A stretch of 41,444 nucleotides of DNA from a virus. Under the pieces are notes generated by a model that had not been told where the DNA came from, did not search any database, and was given only the letters and a program-made list of their open reading frames with translations. The position numbers and the translations under genes were made by a program. Shown piece by piece: positions 5,574-22,749 of this stretch. The first letter of the stretch is position 1, and every line of letters starts with the position of its first letter. The DNA lies in IMG/VR virus record IMGVR_UViG_3300049043_000004, positions 1 to 41,444 of that record. One strand, given 5' to 3'.

Positions 5574-6470
5574 TCACCGTGCCGCTTGATTGTTGGCTCC
5601 AAGAGGCGTGCCTGCAAGTGGATTGCTCATCAGCATACGGATCCGGTTGATACCACGCCGGTAAAGCTCCTTCAGCCGAGTGCTGGAGATATTGTGCTCG
5701 CGTTCAAGTTGCGCCCATGTAACAACTGGATAAGACGATCGCGCTTCAATGATCGCTTTGGTTCTTGGGTCTAGGTACAGCTCAACGTACTGCAACATGA
5801 TCTGCACATCTTGATCAATGTCCACATCAACTGCATTGGGATCAGCGATCAGATCAATAATGGCGCTGCCGTCTGAATCATTGACGTGCTGATCAATGCT
5901 GGTGACTGTATACGTCTGCCGTAATAGATTAGATAGATCAGCTGCATCCATGCCGATCTCCTCTGCTACTTTTGTCATGCTTGGCTGGTGCCCAAGCTGA
6001 TGGCTAAGGTCTTGTATCGTGCGGTTGATTTTGTACAGCATTTCATGCACACCAATAGGCAGTTTGATGATGGCATCATTGCTGACTAATGCCCGAGTAA
6101 TGCCCTGGCGGATCCACCAATAGGCGTAGGTTGAAAACTTGTAGCCACGGCTTGGATCAAACAACTCAACTGCACGCGCTAAGCCGATATTACCTTCTTG
6201 GATAAGGTCCAGTAGCTCTAGTGTTTTGTTGCTGCGTTTGTCGTACTTGCGTGCTACATGTACAACCAGCTGCAGGTTGGACTGGATAAACCGTTGCCGT
6301 GCGCGTTCACCACTGCGTAATTCACGCTGTTCGGTAATGGTCAACGGTCGATCAATAGACTGCAGCTCAATTAACCGCTGCACACGACGGCCAAGTTGTA
6401 TCTCTTGCTGCGGCGTCAGCAGTGGATACTTGGCGATACTGTTGAGATAGTCCTTGATGCTGTCAACCAT
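5574..6470 (-). CDS. Sigma-70 family RNA polymerase sigma factor (cyanobacterial group 2-like)
   Basis: A 298-residue sigma factor. Region 1.2 (DSIKDYLNSIAKYPLLTPQQEI) is followed by regions 2.1-2.4 with NLQLVVHVARKY, LDLIQEGNIGLARAVE, and YKFSTYAYWWIRQGITRAL. Region 3 follows (QLGHQPSMTKVAEEIGM). Region 4 is present but diverged: the usual cyanobacterial helix-turn-helix is replaced by WAQLEREHNISSTRLKELY. Known: group 2 sigmas of cyanobacteria recognise -10/-35 promoters through regions 2.4 and 4.2. Conserved 2.4 with changed 4.2 suggests normal -10 but altered -35 recognition (inference). It is the last gene of the leftward region, 59 bases from the convergent HNH gene. Confidence 0.9.
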   Translation of the reverse strand: MVDSIKDYLNSIAKYPLLTPQQEIQLGRRVQRLIELQSIDRPLTITEQRELRSGERARQRFIQSNLQLVVHVARKYDKRSNKTLELLDLIQEGNIGLARAVELFDPSRGYKFSTYAYWWIRQGITRALVSNDAIIKLPIGVHEMLYKINRTIQDLSHQLGHQPSMTKVAEEIGMDAADLSNLLRQTYTVTSIDQHVNDSDGSAIIDLIADPNAVDVDIDQDVQIMLQYVELYLDPRTKAIIEARSSYPVVTWAQLEREHNISSTRLKELYRRGINRIRMLMSNPLAGTPLGANNQAAR

Positions 6471-6471
6471 G

Positions 6472-6714
6472 ATGAATCCATTAGTGCATACAGTGGAAGC
6501 ACAGTTTCATGGCGCAGCCAATGCTAACATGCTGCGCCAGTTACATGCCGCCAAAGATTACAACGCATTGCTTGAATATGCGTTATTGCTGGCTGAACAA
6601 GAAGCAAGCCAGCGGTCGCAGATCAAATGGCTTGTTGCCGAAGCGCTGCGGTCATGCAGCATTGAACCGTGGCATCTAGCTGCTGCTTCTGAACTGCTTG
6701 CTAGCCGCGACTAG
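6472..6714 (+). CDS. Small helical protein, inverted inside the leftward operon
   Basis: An 80-residue, largely helical protein (MNPLVHTVEAQFHGAANANM, then RQLHAAKDYNALLEYALLLAEQ and SQIKWLVAEALR). I recognise the pattern from small conserved cyanobacterial and cyanophage proteins of unknown function. It is the only rightward gene between 5.5 and 18.4 kb. Its ATG at 6472 lies one base from the sigma-factor ATG on the other strand, so both promoters must sit inside coding sequence. Its 3' end overlaps the dCTP deaminase gene on the opposite strand by 39 bases. The ATG at 6469 is an alternative start. Confidence 0.6.
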   Translation: MNPLVHTVEAQFHGAANANMLRQLHAAKDYNALLEYALLLAEQEASQRSQIKWLVAEALRSCSIEPWHLAAASELLASRD

Positions 6715-7203
6715 CTTGTCATTGTTGTAGCTACCAGTCAACGCATAGCTCAATGCTGGGCGTTGGCTCATGCGGAAGAATACCATCTGACCGATCTTCA
6801 GGCCTGGGTAGATCGGCAGCGACTGCAGCTGACGGGCATTCTTCAGTTCAAGCGTCAAACTGCTGCCATGCCACCCAGGGTCGGCATAACCAGCGTGCAG
6901 GTTTTCGTAGCCTTCCCGCGCACGGCTGGACTTGAGGAAGAACAGCCCTGCTATATCTTCTGGCATCACAAACGTCTCGATCGTTTGCGCCAGGATGAAC
7001 TGCCCTGGCACCAACTGGTACGGATGCTCTGCAGTGTAGTTGCTGATTGACAGCGGGATCATCTGATGTGATTCCACCGATTCCAGCATGATCAGGTTGC
7101 CAAGCCGTAGGTCAAGGCTGGCAGGGTTGATCAGCTCCGGCTGGTGGTGCTGCACCATGCCCTGTTGGATCAGGTCATGGATTTCGATGTCACAGAGGAT
7201 CAT
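6676..7203 (-). CDS. dcd: dCTP deaminase/dUTPase-family protein
   Basis: A 175-residue trimeric nucleotide hydrolase-fold protein. The hallmark block is SSRAREGYENLHAGYADPGW followed by HGSSLTLELKN, where the Glu of TLELKN corresponds to the catalytic Glu of dCTP deaminases. Upstream, PASLDLRLGN matches the N-terminal signature. Known: dCTP deaminase converts dCTP to dUTP, or to dUMP in bifunctional forms, feeding dTMP synthesis or shifting pools. The C-terminus is short compared with cellular enzymes but contains GSYNNDK. It overlaps by 14 bases the end of the upstream NrdR-like gene, fitting a nucleotide-metabolism pair. Confidence 0.88.
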   Translation of the reverse strand: MILCDIEIHDLIQQGMVQHHQPELINPASLDLRLGNLIMLESVESHQMIPLSISNYTAEHPYQLVPGQFILAQTIETFVMPEDIAGLFFLKSSRAREGYENLHAGYADPGWHGSSLTLELKNARQLQSLPIYPGLKIGQMVFFRMSQRPALSYALTGSYNNDKLVAASKQFRSSS

Positions 7204-7610: not shown

Positions 7611-7798
7611 TGCATGTACCAGTTTGCTTTGCGTAGTGATTCAGTGCCGCCTTTATGTTGCTCACGCCAGACATATTTGAGCACATTACCTTTGCAATAA
7701 CCGCGGAACTCTTCTGGTGTTAGCGCTGCCTGGATCGCTTCGATGCACTCAATGCCACCTTTGGTGTAGTGCTCCGGATGATTGACAGGGTCAGTCAT
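7595..7798 (-). CDS. DUF3310 (SaV-like) protein
   Basis: A 67-residue protein with the strong DUF3310 signature: NHPEHYTKGGIECIEAIQA, then EFRGYCKGNVLKYVWR and HKGG...DLRKAxWY-type end (KGGTESLRKANWYMQWL). Known: DUF3310 proteins are common in phage early regions, near nucleotide metabolism genes, and have been linked to nucleotide kinase-like roles in larger fusions; their function alone is not settled. The start ATG overlaps the preceding gene's stop by four bases (ATGA). Confidence 0.85.
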   Translation of the reverse strand: MTDPVNHPEHYTKGGIECIEAIQAALTPEEFRGYCKGNVLKYVWREQHKGGTESLRKANWYMQWLIG

Positions 7799-7998
7799 TG
7801 GCGCAGTTCGGCGGCGATGTCATAAAGCCAATCATCTGCATGATCCATAGGTTCTTCGTTTGCGTATGCTTCGCGAAGGATGTCAGCAGCAGTCTTGAAA
7901 GCGGCAGCCAGTTTGCCACCGTAGTCAACAAATATGCCTGCCTCGTATTCGTTGAACGCTTCCCAGATAGCCTGGGCTTGTGGGGATAGTTCAGTCAT
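7795..7998 (-). CDS. Hypothetical acidic protein, 67 residues
   Basis: A small acidic helical protein starting MTELSPQAQAIWEAFNEYEA, with LAAAFKTAADILREAYAN and WLYDIAAELRQ. The same kind of AFKTAADxLR...IAAEL pattern occurs in small cyanobacterial and cyanophage proteins of unknown function. The ATG at 7998 overlaps the stop of the upstream gene (7991-7993) by 8 bases and was preferred over an upstream start that would read through the neighbour. No catalytic motif is visible. Confidence 0.65.
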   Translation of the reverse strand: MTELSPQAQAIWEAFNEYEAGIFVDYGGKLAAAFKTAADILREAYANEEPMDHADDWLYDIAAELRQ

Positions 7999-10448: not shown

Positions 10449-10648
10449 GGATTGATTGGTGTAATGGAATTGGACTCTTCAAAGGCCAGGACATCCGCTA
10501 TTGGATACCTGACCCTTGATTCACCTAAGGGCAACGCAAACCGCGGTACTGTGTAGTACGACGGTCCTTGGCCGCGCAACCGCTGGGATTTGATGCTGCT
10601 TGGCTTCAATCCCCAGCGTGCTGCTAGTTGCTCAGTCGTCAGATACAA
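10445..10648 (-). CDS. Small helix-turn-helix protein (excisionase/MerR-like)
   Basis: A 67-residue basic protein. The N-terminus YLTTEQLAARWGLKPSSIKS is the classic winged-helix start of excisionase/AlpA/MerR-like regulators, followed by RLRGQGPSYYTVPR and a wing-like VRYPIADVLAFEE. I choose the TTG start at 10648 because a perfect AAGGAGG sits six bases upstream; the only other option would overlap the Bet gene far more. The TTG lies inside the end of bet. It might be a regulator of the early operon or a directionality factor, but no integrase is present. Confidence 0.75.
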   Translation of the reverse strand: MYLTTEQLAARWGLKPSSIKSQRLRGQGPSYYTVPRFALPLGESRVRYPIADVLAFEESNSITPINP

Positions 10649-11354
10649 GTTCAGCCTCCTTCTCGAGCATTTGATGCAGCAGCTTGTCATGCTGCTCTTG
10701 CGTGATCTCACCAGCGTCAAGTCGTGCCGCCATTCGTGGTTGCAATGTGGCTAGCTCTTCTTGGCTCTTGGCCTTGGCGATCGCTGCAGCACCAGCAGTG
10801 AAGAACTTGCTGGTGTCAACCGTTACGGTCACCGGTTGCACCACATCAGCCTGCGCCATTTCGTCGGTGCTGTAGACGCCGCTTAGGTTGGCAGGGAATG
10901 CCTTACGCAGCGCTAGGGCTTCACTGCACTTGGCGATCATCGCAGCAGGCATCTTGGACCATAGGCCTTGGCCGGCGTTGTAGTCCGCAAACCGTGCCAC
11001 ACCGGTAAACGGGTGGCTGCTGCCTTTGCGCCAGATGGTGGTCTTGGCCGCGGCAGGTGGCTTAGCGCTCAGCCATACATCAGCCCACTGGCCATCATCA
11101 CCGCACCATTCCGTAGTGCTGCCGTCCAGCTCGCCAGTGCGTTCTGCAATGGCACGCAAGCCGTCAATGCCGGCTTGGATGGTCATCTTGCCGGCACGCT
11201 TTATGGCGTAGATCTGCTTGCTGAACGGATCCAGCCCGGTACGCTGGCAGGCATAAGCAAACAGTCGCAGCTCGTCATTGCTGCAGCCCGGTGCAATGGT
11301 GCTGCTGATCAGTTGCACCTGGTCTGGTGTCCAGGTGGTGATAGAGGTTGACAT
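10632..11354 (-). CDS. bet: Recombination protein Bet (RecT/Bet family single-strand annealing protein)
   Basis: A 240-residue Bet-type annealing protein. Seen: CSNDELRLFAYACQRTGLDP, then FSKQIYAIKRAGKMTIQAGI, DGLRAIAERTGELDG, HPFTGVARFADY and SKMPAAMIAKCSEALALRKA, in the order of the phage Bet family. The C-terminal part is a variable, acidic helical tail (QEQHDKLLHQMLEKEAELV). Known: Bet anneals complementary single strands made by a partner 5'-3' exonuclease. The exonuclease gene is directly upstream with one base of overlap. Function is therefore well supported. Confidence 0.92.
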   Translation of the reverse strand: MSTSITTWTPDQVQLISSTIAPGCSNDELRLFAYACQRTGLDPFSKQIYAIKRAGKMTIQAGIDGLRAIAERTGELDGSTTEWCGDDGQWADVWLSAKPPAAAKTTIWRKGSSHPFTGVARFADYNAGQGLWSKMPAAMIAKCSEALALRKAFPANLSGVYSTDEMAQADVVQPVTVTVDTSKFFTAGAAAIAKAKSQEELATLQPRMAARLDAGEITQEQHDKLLHQMLEKEAELVSDD

Positions 11355-12139
11355 CAGAAGGTTTCAGTTTGGATGGGGTTGCTTGCCCAACTGGGCAGGC
11401 TGATCGTTTGGATGAACGTGTCGCCGTAGCCAGGCCACACACCAGCGGCATGGCATCCGGCGATCACATCCAGTGCATTGTCCCGCGTGGTTCGCCCTAA
11501 TGCAAGTGCTGCAGCGTCAAGTTCATACACCGCCACAGCGTGCGGGTACGACTTCTCGACCGCAACGAACACAAACCGATCGGCGCCATGCAAGCCGGCT
11601 AGGTAATGCGCTGCCTGCACGTGATACCCAAAGGTGGCAACACTGCGCGCAAAGGCCTGCGGGCTTGCATCAGTGGTGGTTTTGATGTCCACTACGGTGC
11701 TGCCGTAGTACCAGTCCGGGCGGCACTTGCAGCGCATCCCAGTTGGCAGGTCATCCCACCAAAAGGACTGCTCGGCTTTGCCTTGATTGAGCAATGCTGC
11801 AGCAGCAGGATGGTTCCGTACTGCAGCAGCCATGCTCATGGCACTGGCCATGTCGGTGCTGGTAACAGCTTCAATGCCTTCGGCTTCCATCGCTGCAGTC
11901 TGCTCCTTGCCTGCTTTGGTATTGCGTGGCCCGCAAACGCCGTAACGCTGCAGCAGGTCATCCGGTTCGAGGATGGCGCAATGCGCCAGGCTGCCAAGCC
12001 GCATCGCAGCAGTTGGTTCAACTGTGCTGCGGTTTGGATCGATGAACCTACTCCAGTAGTGGTAAGGCGATTGCATTACCGCTTTGAGGTGACTAGCGCT
12101 GACGGCTGGGTCAGCGTGGTACTGCTCGTTGGTAGTCAT
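11354..12139 (-). CDS. PD-(D/E)XK exonuclease (RecE/exonuclease VIII-like, DUF3799)
   Basis: A 261-residue nuclease paired with Bet. The early motif SASHLKAVMQSPYHYWSRFI and RLGSLAHCAILEP is typical of the RecE C-terminal/DUF3799 family. The active site is seen in CKCRPDWYYGSTVVDIKTT, where RPDW and DIK supply the Asp and Asp-x-Lys of the PD-(D/E)XK fold, and YHVQAAHYLAG gives the conserved Gln-containing helix. Known: such enzymes resect double-stranded DNA 5'-3' to feed the annealing protein. The start overlaps the upstream stop by four bases. Confidence 0.9.
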   Translation of the reverse strand: MTTNEQYHADPAVSASHLKAVMQSPYHYWSRFIDPNRSTVEPTAAMRLGSLAHCAILEPDDLLQRYGVCGPRNTKAGKEQTAAMEAEGIEAVTSTDMASAMSMAAAVRNHPAAAALLNQGKAEQSFWWDDLPTGMRCKCRPDWYYGSTVVDIKTTTDASPQAFARSVATFGYHVQAAHYLAGLHGADRFVFVAVEKSYPHAVAVYELDAAALALGRTTRDNALDVIAGCHAAGVWPGYGDTFIQTISLPSWASNPIQTETF

Positions 12140-18386: not shown

Positions 18387-18560
18387 ATGCGTTTAGCCCA
18401 TCCAACACCAGTGCGGCTCACCCCAGATCAGTTGCACTGGCTCGACTCCTGGCGTGGTGACCGCATGAGCAGAAGCACTGCCATCAGGTTGGTGCTACAG
18501 CAATCCATAGACCTGCAGCAACGCGGTCTGCTGCCCGCCACCGGACGCCGCGAGTCATGA
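18387..18560 (+). CDS. 57-residue ribbon-helix-helix regulator
   Basis: A short gene. The product reads MRLAHPTPVRLTPDQLHWLD, then SWRGDRMSRSTAIRLVLQQS and IDLQQRGLLP. It has the strand (PVRL) - helix (PDQLHWLDSWRG) - helix (SRSTAIRLVLQQSI) of the Arc/CopG family. The stop TGA overlaps the primase-helicase ATG (ATGA), indicating coupling. It lies directly beside the divergent promoter with GTTGA repeats. Known: small RHH proteins bind short repeated sites and repress their own promoters. That this one acts at 18266-18298 is inference. Confidence 0.7.
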   Translation: MRLAHPTPVRLTPDQLHWLDSWRGDRMSRSTAIRLVLQQSIDLQQRGLLPATGRRES

Positions 18561-21025
18561 CCATTGCAGACATCACCAATGGCAGGTGGCCCGACCTGCT
18601 GCAGCAGCTTGCTGGCTTGACGCCAGATCAACTCACCGATAAGCACCAGCCGTGTCCGCTTTGCGGTGGTACCGATCGTTACCGCTTTGATGACCAAGGC
18701 GGCACCGGCTCGTGGTACTGCAACCAATGCGGTGGCAAGGACCAACGCGGTGGTGGTGGTACAGGCATGGACCTGATCATGCGCCGCAATGGCTGGTCCT
18801 ATGCCGATGCCTGCCGGCACCTCGAGCAGCACCTGGCAGTGGTGCCGGAACCGCCGACCAAAGGCGCTGACCACACCTGGCGGTACAGCAGCACCTTCTA
18901 CGTCTGCCGGTTTCCCGGCAAAGCCATCAGACCACTCTGGTGGGATGGTGACGCCTGGCGCTGGAAGGCACCACCAGCACCGCGGCCGCTGTACTGGGCG
19001 CGGAAGCTGCCGGGTGCACCGGTGCTGGTGGTCGAAGGTGAAAAGACAGCTGATGCAGCTGCTGCACTATTCACCGGTCATGCTGTCGTCACATGGCCAT
19101 CCGGTTGCAAAGCCATTGCAAAAGCCGATTGGTCGCCACTAGCCGGTCGTCGTTGTGTGCTATGGCCTGATGCCGACATGCCAGGTCGTGACGCAATGGC
19201 CAAGCTGGCGTTGCGGTTACTTGCTGCTGGTGCTACCCAAGTGCGTATTGTCCAGCCGCCAGATGGTGTACCCGATGGCTGGGACCTGGCAGATGCTGAT
19301 TGGACACCAGCGCAAGCCGCAGCGCATCTCATGCGTAACCGCAGCGCACCGATCACCTTGCCGGAACTCGAGCCGGAACCAGTGCTCGAACCTACGATCG
19401 AACCAGACCCGTTGCCAGATGTTGACGGTTACTTTGCCTGCCTTGGTTTCGACAATGACGCCTTCTACTACCAACCCAGCAGCACCGGGCAGGTAACGCG
19501 TCTGTCACGCAGCAGCCACACTGGCACCAACCTGGTAGCGCTAGCGCCATTGGTTTACTGGGAATCGCTTTACCCATCTAAAACCGGTGTCAACTGGACC
19601 GCAGCTGCCAGCAGTTTGTTCGAGCGTCAAGCTGCAGCAGGTGTCTACAGCCCTGATCGCATCCGTGGTCGTGGTGCATGGTGGGATCAGCGCTGCAGTG
19701 TCCTGCACCTCGGCGATCGCCTTGTGGTAGACGGCGCCAACCGTGATGTCAGTACTGGCATCACCGGCAGCTCGTACCTCTACCAGCGCCTTGCGCGGTT
19801 GCATGGTCCCGGCACTGCCAAGCCGTTGGATGATGTCGAGGCTCATGTCCTATCAGAACTGGCCGAACGGTTCCGCTGGGATGTGCCTGCATCTGGCCTG
19901 CTGCTGGCCGGTTGGGTAACGCTTGCACCGATCTGCGGTGCACTCAACTGGCGGCCGCACGCATGGCTCACGGCAGGTGCCGGTTCTGGCAAGTCCGCCA
20001 TTCTGGATCGTTACATCAGCCCACTTCTGGGTGACATGGGTCTGTTCGTCGGTGGCAACACCACCGAACCGGGCATCCGCCAGGCCTTGCGCGCTGATGC
20101 GCGGCCGGTCGTATTCGATGAAGCAGAGTCCAACGAACGCAGCGATCAGCAACGGATGCAGGCGATCCTTGGCCTGGCACGAGTGGCCAGCTCGGAGTCC
20201 AAAGCCCACACCCTAAAGGGCAGTCCCGAAGGTGATACGCAGCGTTACACCATCCGGTCGATGTTCCTGATGTCGTCGATTGCTACGGCTCTGAAACAAG
20301 GTGCTGACAAATCACGCTTTGCGCAGCTCACATTGCGCAATCCCAGCGACATACCACGTGATGAACGCATCGCTCACTGGGAAGCATTAGACAAGGACCT
20401 TGACCGCTACGTAACAGAAGCCATTGGCCAGCGATTGCAGGCTAGGACCATTGCATTGATACCAACGATTCGCGCCAGTGTGCGTATCTTCACCAGGGCA
20501 GCAGCAGAAGCATTTGATAGCCAACGCCTTGGCGATCAATACGGCACGCTATTAGCCGGTGCGTGGTCTTTGCAGTCCAGTGAAGTTGCCACACCCGATC
20601 AGGCATGGCAGCTAATTGAACAAAACAACTGGGAACCGTATTCGCAAGCAGTTGAAATACCAGATGAAAAGCGCTGCCTGCAACGTATCCTGCAGTATCA
20701 AATACGCGCTGAAGGTAGTAAAACTGTCACCCGTACTGTTGGTGAACTGGTAGACGTTGCATTGCATCACAGTACCGATATAGACGTCACCGCAGACCTC
20801 GCAGCAGCAATCCTTGGCCGCAATGGCATCAAGGCTGAACAAGGCTGCATCTGCATCTCAAACACCGCTAACGCCATCGCTGGCATCCTGTCCGATACGC
20901 CATGGAGCAACTGCTGGTCCACCGTGCTGGCGCGCTTGCCAGGTGCGGAGAAGGTCGGCGTTATTTGGTTCAAAGGTTCAGGCGGTAACAGTCGAGCAAC
21001 CAAAATCCCACTCGAAGCCGCCTGA
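18557..21025 (+). CDS. Primase-helicase (zinc-ribbon, Toprim-like and AAA+/D5-type helicase domains)
   Basis: An 822-residue replication protein. Residues 31-60 form a primase zinc ribbon (QPCPLCGGTDRYRF, YCNQCGG). A Toprim-like region follows (PVLVVEGEKTADAAAALF, then VLWPDADMPGRDAMA with the acidic pair). The C-terminal half is a DUF927/D5-type helicase: AWLTAGAGSGKSAILDRY is the Walker A near residue 475, and RPVVFDEAESNE is the Walker B. The last 100 residues look like a winged-helix domain. Known: such fused proteins unwind the origin and prime synthesis in many phages and plasmids. It is followed by the repeat array. Confidence 0.9.
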   Translation: MTIADITNGRWPDLLQQLAGLTPDQLTDKHQPCPLCGGTDRYRFDDQGGTGSWYCNQCGGKDQRGGGGTGMDLIMRRNGWSYADACRHLEQHLAVVPEPPTKGADHTWRYSSTFYVCRFPGKAIRPLWWDGDAWRWKAPPAPRPLYWARKLPGAPVLVVEGEKTADAAAALFTGHAVVTWPSGCKAIAKADWSPLAGRRCVLWPDADMPGRDAMAKLALRLLAAGATQVRIVQPPDGVPDGWDLADADWTPAQAAAHLMRNRSAPITLPELEPEPVLEPTIEPDPLPDVDGYFACLGFDNDAFYYQPSSTGQVTRLSRSSHTGTNLVALAPLVYWESLYPSKTGVNWTAAASSLFERQAAAGVYSPDRIRGRGAWWDQRCSVLHLGDRLVVDGANRDVSTGITGSSYLYQRLARLHGPGTAKPLDDVEAHVLSELAERFRWDVPASGLLLAGWVTLAPICGALNWRPHAWLTAGAGSGKSAILDRYISPLLGDMGLFVGGNTTEPGIRQALRADARPVVFDEAESNERSDQQRMQAILGLARVASSESKAHTLKGSPEGDTQRYTIRSMFLMSSIATALKQGADKSRFAQLTLRNPSDIPRDERIAHWEALDKDLDRYVTEAIGQRLQARTIALIPTIRASVRIFTRAAAEAFDSQRLGDQYGTLLAGAWSLQSSEVATPDQAWQLIEQNNWEPYSQAVEIPDEKRCLQRILQYQIRAEGSKTVTRTVGELVDVALHHSTDIDVTADLAAAILGRNGIKAEQGCICISNTANAIAGILSDTPWSNCWSTVLARLPGAEKVGVIWFKGSGGNSRATKIPLEAA

Positions 21026-21273
21026 CCGTTCGGAGGCGTTCGGCTGAAAACCGTTGGTATGACTCGAAACTAACGCTCCGAACGCTCCTAACGGTTTTCA
21101 GGAAGAGCCCCCCTTATAGAGAGAGAGTATGTGTGTGTAGAGGTAAGGGGTGGATTCTCTTGTATGTATGTATCTCCTTTAGCGTTAGGAGTGTTAGGTT
21201 AGGGACTCAGGCCAATGGTGGCGGGCGATCTCGGCCGAACGCCTACCGTTAGGCGACCGTTCGGACCGTTAGG
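21026..21273. repeat. Array of CGTTMGG repeats, candidate replication origin or operator array
   Basis: The 250 bases after the primase-helicase have no gene but hold nine exact copies of the 7-mer CGTTMGG (M = A or C) in both orientations: + at 21027, 21037, 21183, 21247, 21258, 21267; - at 21078, 21087, 21235. Near copies are at 21052, 21070 and 21192. Neighbouring copies are mostly 9-11 bases apart, about one helical turn. The middle (21111-21180) is a simple-sequence stretch of GA, GT and TATG repeats, possibly easily melted. A long inverted repeat CTGAAAACCGTT (21044-21055) / AACGGTTTTCAG (21090-21101) flanks three of the sites. The last repeat merges with the RBS AGGAG of the next gene. 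Confidence 0.75.
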
Positions 21274-21278
21274 AGCTC

Positions 21279-21551
21279 ATGAAAGAAGTCAAAGTCCGGT
21301 TTGCGCCGGCTGACCTGGCAGCACTTGACCAGCAGGCAGCTACCGCAGGTGTCAGCCGCAGCGAACTGATCCGCAGCCGTGCGCTTGTTGCAAACTGTGG
21401 CGCTGGCCTTACCGTCGCTGGTTACCACCGCTTAGTGTCAGATGCGCTCGCTAGCGTCCGTGGTGACATGCCGCGACGGATGGTTGAGCAGCTCGTTGCG
21501 TTCACCGTCACATGGATCTCATCCAAATCGCAGCCAAGCAGCAACCCGTGA
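21279..21551 (+). CDS. Ribbon-helix-helix protein adjacent to the repeat array
   Basis: A 90-residue protein: MKEVKVRFAPADLAALDQQA, then ATAGVSRSELIRSRALVANC. The N-terminal strand VKVRFA, helix PADLAALDQQAATAG and helix SRSELIRSRAL are a standard ribbon-helix-helix (MetJ/Arc) DNA-binding domain. The C-terminal part (YHRLVSDALASVRGDMPRRM, VEQLVAFTVTWI) is helical and may mediate oligomer formation. Its ATG lies six bases after the last CGTTMGG repeat, so the protein is well placed to bind the array, as omega/ParG-like proteins bind 7-bp heptad repeats at their own promoter. That link is inference. Confidence 0.8.
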   Translation: MKEVKVRFAPADLAALDQQAATAGVSRSELIRSRALVANCGAGLTVAGYHRLVSDALASVRGDMPRRMVEQLVAFTVTWISSKSQPSSNP

Positions 21552-21712
21552 TCAACCGGTTGCATGACTGCATGACACAAGCTCTTGCATATGCCGCCGC
21601 AATCCGCGACAATGCCCAAGATGACCAGCAACCTATCCCGCCGGAACTGGTCGCTTCCTTTGCCGCTGATTACGAGCGGCTGGTTTCAATCCTCACCCAA
21701 GCCGCTCAATGA
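21512..21712 (+). CDS. Small helical hypothetical protein
   Basis: A 66-residue protein, MDLIQIAAKQQPVINRLHDC, MTQALAYAAAIRDNAQDDQQ, then ELVASFAADYERLVSILTQA. It overlaps the end of the RHH gene by 40 bases and the start of the clamp gene by four, so all three are in one coupled unit. No family is recognised. Helical content and small size suggest an adaptor or partner protein, but nothing in the sequence shows a specific role. Confidence 0.6.
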   Translation: MDLIQIAAKQQPVINRLHDCMTQALAYAAAIRDNAQDDQQPIPPELVASFAADYERLVSILTQAAQ

Positions 21713-22749
21713 AACTCATCACAACCCAGGCTGATCTAAGCCATGCCTTGCGCACCATTGCGCCGGCGATCAGCACCAGCAACAGCCATCCGATCCTGTC
21801 CTGTTGCCTCATCGCTGCCAGTGGCGGCACCATGACCATCACCGGTTTCAACCTCGACCTTGGCATCACGGTCACCGTGCCTGCTGCTGTAGACACCGCC
21901 GGCACCGTTGCATTGCCGTACAAGCTGCTGGCAGGCCTTGTGAGCCGCATGGATGATGGCGAGCCTGTAACGCTGTCAGATGGCGCTGTGGTCGCTTCCA
22001 GCGGCTCCTATGGCCTTGCGGTGCAGGATGCAGCGGATTATCCCGATCTGCCTGCTGTGGAGGCTCCTGGCGCTGAGCTGGACCTCACCGCTGGTGTACG
22101 TGCCTGTATGGCAGCTGTCAGCACCGATGCCAGTAAGCAGATCCTTCAAGGCATTCATCTTGGTGCTGGCTTCATGGAGTCCACCGACGGCCATCGCCTC
22201 ATGCGTGTGCCGGTTGAGCTGCCCGCAGGCATCGACCTGGTGCTGCCGGCAGCCACCATGAAGCTGCTGCAGGATCGTGTTGTTGGTATCGCAGCTGCAC
22301 GCGGTCAAGCCGTGATCGACGCAGGTGATGGCATCACCATCTACAGCCGTATCCTTGATGGCAAATACCCAGACGTGGCAGCGCTTATCCCCAGTAGCTT
22401 TGAGCACACCATCACGGTTGACCGGCATCGCTTCACTCGCGCACTAGAGCGCGTTGCCCTGATCGCAGAAGCGCACAACAACGTGGTCAAGATCATCGCC
22501 GCAGCCGGTGGTCTTGAAGTCAGCGCTGAAGCAGATGCCAACAACGGCCGCGAGCTGCTCACCTACGAAGGCGTCGCCAAAGGTACCTGGGCATTCAACG
22601 TGCATTACCTGCTCGATGGTCTCAAAGCCATGCGGTCGGCTGAAACTGTTACACTCTCAGCCAACAGCGCAACAACACCAGTGGTGTTGACGCCAGTTGA
22701 TAACAGTGCTGTAACATATCTTGTGATGCCAGTACAGGTAAGGGAATGA
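21709..22749 (+). CDS. dnaN: DNA polymerase III beta subunit (sliding clamp)
   Basis: A 346-residue clamp. Family features seen are the start LITTQADLSHALRTIAPAIS, the SNSHPILSCCLIAAS region, VALPYKLLAGLVSRM, ASKQILQGIHLGAGF with STDGHRLMRV, the third-domain part YPDVAALIPSSFEHTITVDR and the C-terminal TYLVMPVQVRE typical of beta clamps. Three ~115-residue domains are expected and the length fits. Known: the clamp tethers polymerase to DNA. A phage copy is unusual and no polymerase gene is seen in the window, so it may serve the host polymerase. Its stop overlaps the next ATG by four bases. Confidence 0.9.
   Translation: MKLITTQADLSHALRTIAPAISTSNSHPILSCCLIAASGGTMTITGFNLDLGITVTVPAAVDTAGTVALPYKLLAGLVSRMDDGEPVTLSDGAVVASSGSYGLAVQDAADYPDLPAVEAPGAELDLTAGVRACMAAVSTDASKQILQGIHLGAGFMESTDGHRLMRVPVELPAGIDLVLPAATMKLLQDRVVGIAAARGQAVIDAGDGITIYSRILDGKYPDVAALIPSSFEHTITVDRHRFTRALERVALIAEAHNNVVKIIAAAGGLEVSAEADANNGRELLTYEGVAKGTWAFNVHYLLDGLKAMRSAETVTLSANSATTPVVLTPVDNSAVTYLVMPVQVRE

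Follow-up and report, generated by a model that had tools for sequence, protein, structure and literature searches.

Analysis of the window, which makes up a complete virus record (41,444 bases) and has Synechococcus phage S-H1 as its nearest deposited relative, confirmed an array of CGTTMGG heptamers that is very probably the replication origin of the phage, in which the heptamers would act as iterons read by the C-terminal domain of the primase-helicase encoded upstream. Observed directly were the array and its conserved geometry, its linkage to one primase family, exchanges of domain and array together, a correlation between residues and bases, and a similarity of fold. The features of the region are as follows.

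18557-21025, plus strand: primase-helicase and presumed initiator, 822 amino acids, with zinc ribbon, TOPRIM primase, AAA+ (SF3-like) helicase and putative C-terminal DNA-reading domain
20753-21022, plus strand: C-terminal specificity domain, residues 733-822, which holds every fixed difference that separates the CGTMAGA sister group from the CGTAACA one
20948-21010, plus strand: putative specificity beta-hairpin, residues 798-818, including W804 (strands E798-804 and E811-818 in the model)
21027-21093, both strands: left iteron cluster, with exact sites at 21027+, 21037+, 21078- and 21087- and a one-mismatch site at 21069-; its geometry is conserved across heptamer classes
21044-21067, plus strand: dyad element 1 (CTGAAAACCGTTGGTATGACTCGA), a motif shared after masking, located by profile
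21105-21182: simple-sequence core (CTTATAGAGAGAG...TTGTATGTATGTATCT), candidate unwinding region
21183-21273, both strands: right iteron cluster, with exact sites at 21183+, 21235-, 21247+, 21258+ and 21267+ and a one-mismatch site at 21192+
21211-21234, minus strand: dyad element 2 (CCGAGATCGCCCGCCACCATTGGC on that strand), shared and located in the same way
21279-21551, plus strand: NikA-like/CopG RHH protein, 90 amino acids (Pfam PF21983, 4.9e-7; PF01402, 1.5e-4)
21709-22749, plus strand: DNA polymerase III beta clamp (Pfam DNA_pol3_beta domains), the next gene of the replication module

Heptamer array, core and conserved geometry

The array lies between the primase-helicase and RHH genes, which are followed by the beta clamp and terminase genes, and it starts at the primase stop codon (21027). 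Nine exact copies of CGTTMGG, on both strands, were located within 21027-21273, where about 0.04 sites would be expected by chance in the 253 bp of the array, while the full 41.4 kb window holds 12 copies against the 6.05 expected from dinucleotide shuffles. These counts confirm the nine heptamers and the rarity claimed in the original prediction, which had also counted three near-exact sites; such sites do exist, and the number was slightly low, as four with one mismatch were found (21069-, CGTTAGT; 21192+, TGTTAGG; 21197+, GGTTAGG; 21242-, CGGTAGG). Inside the sub-clusters the sites start 9-12 bp from one another, and the clusters surround a simple-sequence core, as had been described. That the array is an artefact of chance or composition, or a known RNA element, has a negligible probability, given the excess of nine sites over expectation, its conservation in dozens of relatives and the lack of any match in an Rfam scan of the region. 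The last heptamer of the window runs into the AGGAG ribosome-binding site of the RHH gene; this merging, noted earlier, holds for the window and is peculiar to close relatives, the two being 10-50 bp apart in L001, L053, L061 and others. GC skew gave no clear independent origin signal at the array and is uninformative in this respect because the gene strand changes nearby.

A first collection, with the primase and the RHH protein as queries, yielded about 160 loci, and in 64/64 loci having both genes in order the intergenic region measured 239-329 bp. Arrays of the same design were present with a heptamer specific to each lineage (CGTTMGG, CGTAACA, CGTMAGA, CGTGAGA, CGTYACA and others), of which the following are examples.

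CGTTMGG: window, S-H1, L017, L027, L061
CGTAACA: L018, L030, L034, L063
CGTMAGA: L035, L044
CGTGAGA: L050
CGTTACA: L059

The exact heptamer is thus absent from many syntenic relatives, and the scan of relatives that had been proposed gave a divided answer: the array is kept, with a different heptamer. Site positions and orientations agree within 1-2 bp between heptamer classes, as seen in the distances from the primase stop (> and < give orientation, the bar marks the core).

Window (CGTTMGG): 2> 12> 44< 53< 62< | 158> 167> 210< 222> 233> 242>
L017 (CGTTMGG): 1> 11> 43< 52< 61< | 157> 166> 209< 221> 232> 241>
L035 (CGTMAGA): 2> 12> 45< 54< 63< | 159> 168> 212< 224> 234> 243>

The spacings are near multiples of the helical turn, and in L018 the outer left pair of sites is inverted. 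A heptamer that changes on a constant scaffold is as expected if one protein assembly reads the sites.

Among family members with enough downstream sequence, at least three CGTNNNN copies occur within 330 bp of the primase stop in nearly all full-length members, down to 43% identity. The isolated phage S-H1 of WH7803 (MK105819) carries the same module with a CGTTMGG array and a primase 69% identical to that of the window; its array is unannotated, and its RHH protein is only 49% identical. In the Bdellovibrio phage phi1422 (L167:4054-4390), whose primase is 34.6% identical and has R at position 804, eleven copies of GGTAACA stand directly 3' of the primase gene, in two sets separated by a core of 86% AT; by eye, the small ORF that comes next (MLKITKSIGIDYNLAMAV...) resembles an RHH gene. 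No comparable array was found directly 3' of the primase in the distant phages ZRG1, Bordetella PBb002, Serratia MQ-4, Jeremy, Acjo_20 and Microcystis JY13, and Rheinheimera KLER1 has a weaker GCTTACA set of five, not above shuffles. With the primases of L080 and phi1422 as queries, nothing beyond the queries themselves was recovered.

Primase relatives with CGTYACA, CGTTCCA or CGTCCCA arrays were also seen in genomes of Cyanobium, freshwater Synechococcus and Vulcanococcus (L220-L256), several of which carry two or more copies, e.g., Synechococcus sp. HJ21-Hayes, and this multiplicity suggests prophages or satellites. One locus, L056 (around 7691-7975), has a mixed array, the left half being CGTGAGA as in L055 and the right half CGTTACA with an RHH gene as in L059, while its Y804 fits the left half; it is either a recombinant inside the array or an assembly chimera.

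The core may be the region that is opened. It contains 55% AT, against 47% and 39% on its sides, and the maximum AT content over 50 bp in relatives is 58-86%. After masking of iterons, a pyrimidine/TATG core was common to 13 diverse regions with three initiator types (21.8 bits vs 14.9-15.5 in shuffles). Among the points that weigh against an origin are the core of only 55% AT in the window and the several distant phages that have this primase type without an obvious array downstream. It is improbable that the array serves the initiator in cis without being the firing origin, for example as a copy-control or incompatibility site or as an operator through which the primase regulates transcription of the RHH-clamp operon. 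The array does sit in the leader of the RHH gene, and in P4 and iteron plasmids the repeats bound by the initiator also serve control functions. Against this, promoter and terminator scans of the array region gave no promoter-like or terminator-like site, no second array comparable to 21027-21273 exists in the window, and the two clusters with their conserved core share the layout of replication-competent PICI origins (PMC6092414).

Primase-helicase C-terminal domain and heptamer class

The primase-helicase matched Pfam PF08273 (Zn_Ribbon_Prim), weakly Toprim_3, and the PHROG family DNA primase. Foldseek analysis of a full-length model of mediocre quality (pTM 0.43) gave as best PDB match the SaPIbov1 Rep helicase (8tch_B; E 6e-5, probability 1.00), followed by SaPI5 PriRep1 with dsDNA (7pds; E 2e-4) and T7 primase (1nui). 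The protein is thus a fusion of a zinc-ribbon TOPRIM primase with a SaPI-Rep-like helicase. Residues 690-822 were predicted with higher confidence by AlphaFold2 (pLDDT 91, pTM 0.84), and in this model as well as in the full-length one a winged-helix-like fold is followed by a beta-hairpin at the C-terminus, made of residues 798-818. With the C-terminal domain alone as query, no PDB match reached significance, the best relevant one being 7pds (E 0.74).

Whole-protein similarity of the primase was tried as a predictor of the heptamer and rejected, as L018 is 78% identical to the window yet has CGTAACA, while L001 is 69% identical and has CGTTMGG; this failure directed attention to the C-terminal domain. 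The primases of L044 (CGTMAGA) and L063 (CGTAACA) are 94% identical overall, with 8 differences in residues 1-732 versus 38 in residues 733-822; the fixed differences between the two groups are confined to residues 733-821. At the nucleotide level, identity is 91-99% over the first 2100 nt of the gene, 45-73% in the C-terminal domain and array, and 95-98% once the RHH gene begins. Copies of the two heptamers number 10 and 0 in L044 versus 0 and 8 in L063, so that neither array retains the heptamer of the other. Judged by these identities, the pair is a natural swap of domain plus array. More generally, ten changes of heptamer class were counted on the tree of residues 1-720 versus six on that of residues 733-822, and CGTMAGA and CGTAACA types are interleaved in one tight clade (L043/L045, L034, L063). 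Because domain and array abut, we propose that one recombination event may exchange both and change the specificity of the origin. Among the PrimPol-VapE relatives divergence is not clearly concentrated in the C-terminus, and therefore the claim of co-variation is limited to the TOPRIM family.

The association was resolved to single residues with 38 representatives. The eight of 819 primase columns with the highest mutual information with heptamer class were 804, 803, 816, 808, 802, 792, 811 and 810, all within residues 792-816 and mostly in the predicted beta-hairpin. Residue 804 was W in 20/20 CGTTMGG members, R in 26/26 CGTAACA and CGTYACA members, and Y (15) or H (1) in CGTMAGA and CGTGAGA members. 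In the relatives of L076, which was misaligned at 804 in the set of 38, a later alignment placed R804 with CGTGACA.

The rule was then applied to held-out relatives, fetched after it had been made, at loci with at least three heptamer copies. These comprised R with CA (27) or CG (2), Y with GA (5), W with GG (2), and H with GA (11) or with TG, TA or TT (8). After removal of near-copies, 22 of 28 representatives were correct, while none of 20,000 shuffles did as well, and R804 occurred with C at heptamer base 6 in 14/14. A telling pair is L185 (Y, CGTATGA) versus L204 (W, CGTATGG). H804 is ambiguous, going with GA in 6 representatives and with TN in 4, and it gives no unique reading because a class with H804 and CGTAATG exists. 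This separate class (L181-L187 and L200) has the hairpin PTHFAGIGAKRSTVIP. Tree-independent pairs numbered 6/0 for R804 with CA (p 0.03), 5/0 for GA and 2/0 for GG; being so few, they indicate that the association of columns with heptamer is partly one of shared ancestry.

These data agree with a mechanism in which the winged-helix-like C-terminal domain and the beta-hairpin of the primase-helicase would bind the heptamers. The conserved bases CGT would be read by invariant features of the domain and the variable last bases mainly by the hairpin, residue 804 setting the final two (W for GG, R for CA, Y for GA). The 10-11 phased iterons, in two clusters on one helix face, would load the initiator on either side of the GA/GT/TATG core, where the AAA+ helicase ring would assemble and open the core. 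The fused TOPRIM primase would prime the opened core, and the phage beta clamp, encoded two genes on, would support elongation by the host polymerase. Recombination would swap the domain and the array together while the rest of the module stays. Physical binding, melting, the role of the core and the firing of the origin are what we infer in this scheme. The claim of an iteron-like origin opened by the phage initiator is strongly supported, since the array accompanies the primase-helicase family even between distant members, with a heptamer that varies along with the C-terminal domain of the primase.

RHH protein and dyad elements

The RHH gene is conserved downstream of three unrelated initiator types, found upstream in 45 (TOPRIM), 35 (PrimPol-VapE) and 9 (D5) distinct loci, and the clamp follows it in 92/96 distinct loci. 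Examples of the same slot with other initiators, and with the same RHH and beta clamp genes, are L085:2332-4701, L097:2683-4722 and L114:2633-4711, where D5/DUF5906 and PrimPol-PriCT_2-VapE initiators each have their own array, of the GGCGGACGCAA and of the CCCCACCT or CCTACCT types.

The original prediction had offered, as an alternative or in addition, an operator array for the RHH protein. In such a reading, this omega/ParG/CopG-like protein would control its own gene through the heptamers, with a possible effect on copy number or partition. RHH proteins bind short heptads, and in the window the gene starts right past the array, with the last site over its ribosome-binding site. This reading is nonetheless highly improbable. 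RHH proteins 76-87% identical to that of the window, with the same N-terminal strand, follow CGTTMGG arrays or, when the initiator is of the D5 or PrimPol-PriCT-VapE type, GGCGGACGCAA or CCYACCT arrays, which means that the array changes with the initiator. Swaps of the L044/L063 type alter the array while the RHH region is still 95-98% identical, and conversely subfamilies with the N-termini MKEVKVRF and MPEIKFRI both accompany CGTTMGG. As a reader of the heptamers the RHH protein was rejected, the same DNA-reading strand MKEVKVRF being found with several unrelated repeats that fail to track it. Distant array-bearing relatives had no convincing RHH gene within 1 kb, many of them without a clear one nearby, and for this reason the RHH protein is regarded as an accessory of the nearer phages. 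The partition role found no support either, as no ParA-type ATPase was detected among the ORFs tested, the neighbors being the beta clamp, TerS and TerL.

A different role for the RHH protein is suggested by a 24 bp element, CYGAGATCSCYTGCnnnGCAnTGG, which the original prediction had not noted and which was recovered after masking of iterons and core, with 18.9 bits where shuffles gave 12.0-12.7. Its consensus columns are symmetric, and nearly always two good sites occur per region, one per iteron cluster. These dyads are a candidate RHH operator or hairpin. Since the element persists in regions with three unrelated initiators that share the same RHH family, the RHH protein would be the leading candidate to bind it. 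It may be, although we rate it somewhat below even, that there are two readers, the initiator C-terminal domain on the heptamers and the RHH protein on the dyads of about 24 bp, the latter regulating initiation or the RHH-clamp operon. The sharing of the element across initiators, its symmetry and its paired occurrence favor this arrangement, which is compatible with, and additional to, an origin read by the C-terminal domain. On the other hand, the dyad is degenerate and lies inside the block exchanged in L044/L063, and its similarity could partly reflect common ancestry of the flanks.

Relation to known systems

In PICI origins, which support replication, an AT-rich region always lies between two sets of iterons, and this arrangement directly follows the 3' end of the initiator gene (PMC6092414). 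The C-terminal domain of SaPI/PICI Rep recognizes the iterons (PMC7581432); the candidate counterpart of this recognition in the TOPRIM family is a very strong genetic co-variation of C-terminal domain and heptamer. The present system resembles SaPI/PICI Rep (Pri-Rep) and its ori, including SCCmec Cch2, in its self-loading primase-helicase, in the position of the putative origin immediately 3' of the initiator gene, in having short iterons in two sets, one on each side of a core (PMC6092414), and, with modest model confidence, in the AAA+ helicase fold matched to 8tch and 7pds. It differs in its carriers, which are complete tailed cyanophages and picocyanobacterial genomes instead of satellites; the window itself encodes terminase, head, tape measure and tail proteins and is thus not a PICI satellite. 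In addition, a TOPRIM/zinc-ribbon primase is fused in here, unlike the AEP-family primases of SaPIbov1 and SaPI5 (PMC7581432), RHH and beta-clamp genes follow, and heptamer diversity with a single-residue correlation is documented.

Other systems share fewer of these traits. The alpha protein of P4 is likewise a primase-helicase initiator that binds short repeats via its C-terminal part; in P4, the origin lies apart from crr and neither adjoins the gene end, unlike the single region directly downstream found here. Iteron plasmid origins of the RepA/RepE type use a winged-helix Rep without helicase, in contrast to the primase-helicase of the window. Lambda O is not known to have a helicase or primase domain. 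Lambdoid O and its origin are similar as a phage initiator with type-specific iterons, but the lambda origin lies inside gene O (PMC6022878). In the Vibrio PLE, the origin varies in concert with the DNA-binding domain of the RepA_N initiator and is exchanged along with it, a joint exchange favored by an origin-targeting nuclease (PMC8263062); that initiator, unlike the one studied here, is without helicase or primase, has an N-terminal reader and uses semi-palindromic iterons of about 30 bp.

By comparison with these systems, the putative origin is of a known general kind, SaPI/PICI-like, and the earlier suggestion of an undescribed system stands for the variant and not for the kind. New are its occurrence in complete tailed picocyanobacterial phages, the fused TOPRIM primase, the recurrent domain-plus-array swapping, the use of three alternative initiators in one slot and the near single-residue specificity correlation. 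In the literature searched, no description of an iteron origin in a cyanophage was found. In a widespread group of picocyanobacterial phages, and at related loci in picocyanobacterial genomes, the sequence by itself is enough to point out a putative origin and its presumed reader. The SaPI/PICI-style anatomy would be placed in autonomous tailed phages, although it was stated in 2018 to occur in no other replicon.

The natural swaps and the correlation at residue 804 provide a ready series on how protein-DNA specificity evolves across ten or more sites together, and they suggest selection on origin identity, as has been shown for PLE and Odn. By analogy, the selection behind the swapping may resemble the PLE case with its origin-targeting nuclease. 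A tentative and rather doubtful extension is that in picocyanobacterial phages a slot between structural and early genes has its initiator, or only the reading domain, repeatedly exchanged with a private origin, the RHH protein and dyads being an initiator-independent adapter. If this were true, origin type would be under diversifying selection, with a near one-residue code (W/R/Y at 804) and fixed geometry, and the causes could be escape from origin-targeting nucleases or satellites, or from competition with co-infecting relatives. Elsewhere in the window, the minus strand encodes a sigma-70 factor (5574-6470), a dCTP deaminase-like protein (6676-7203) and a RecT and exonuclease VIII pair (10632-12139).
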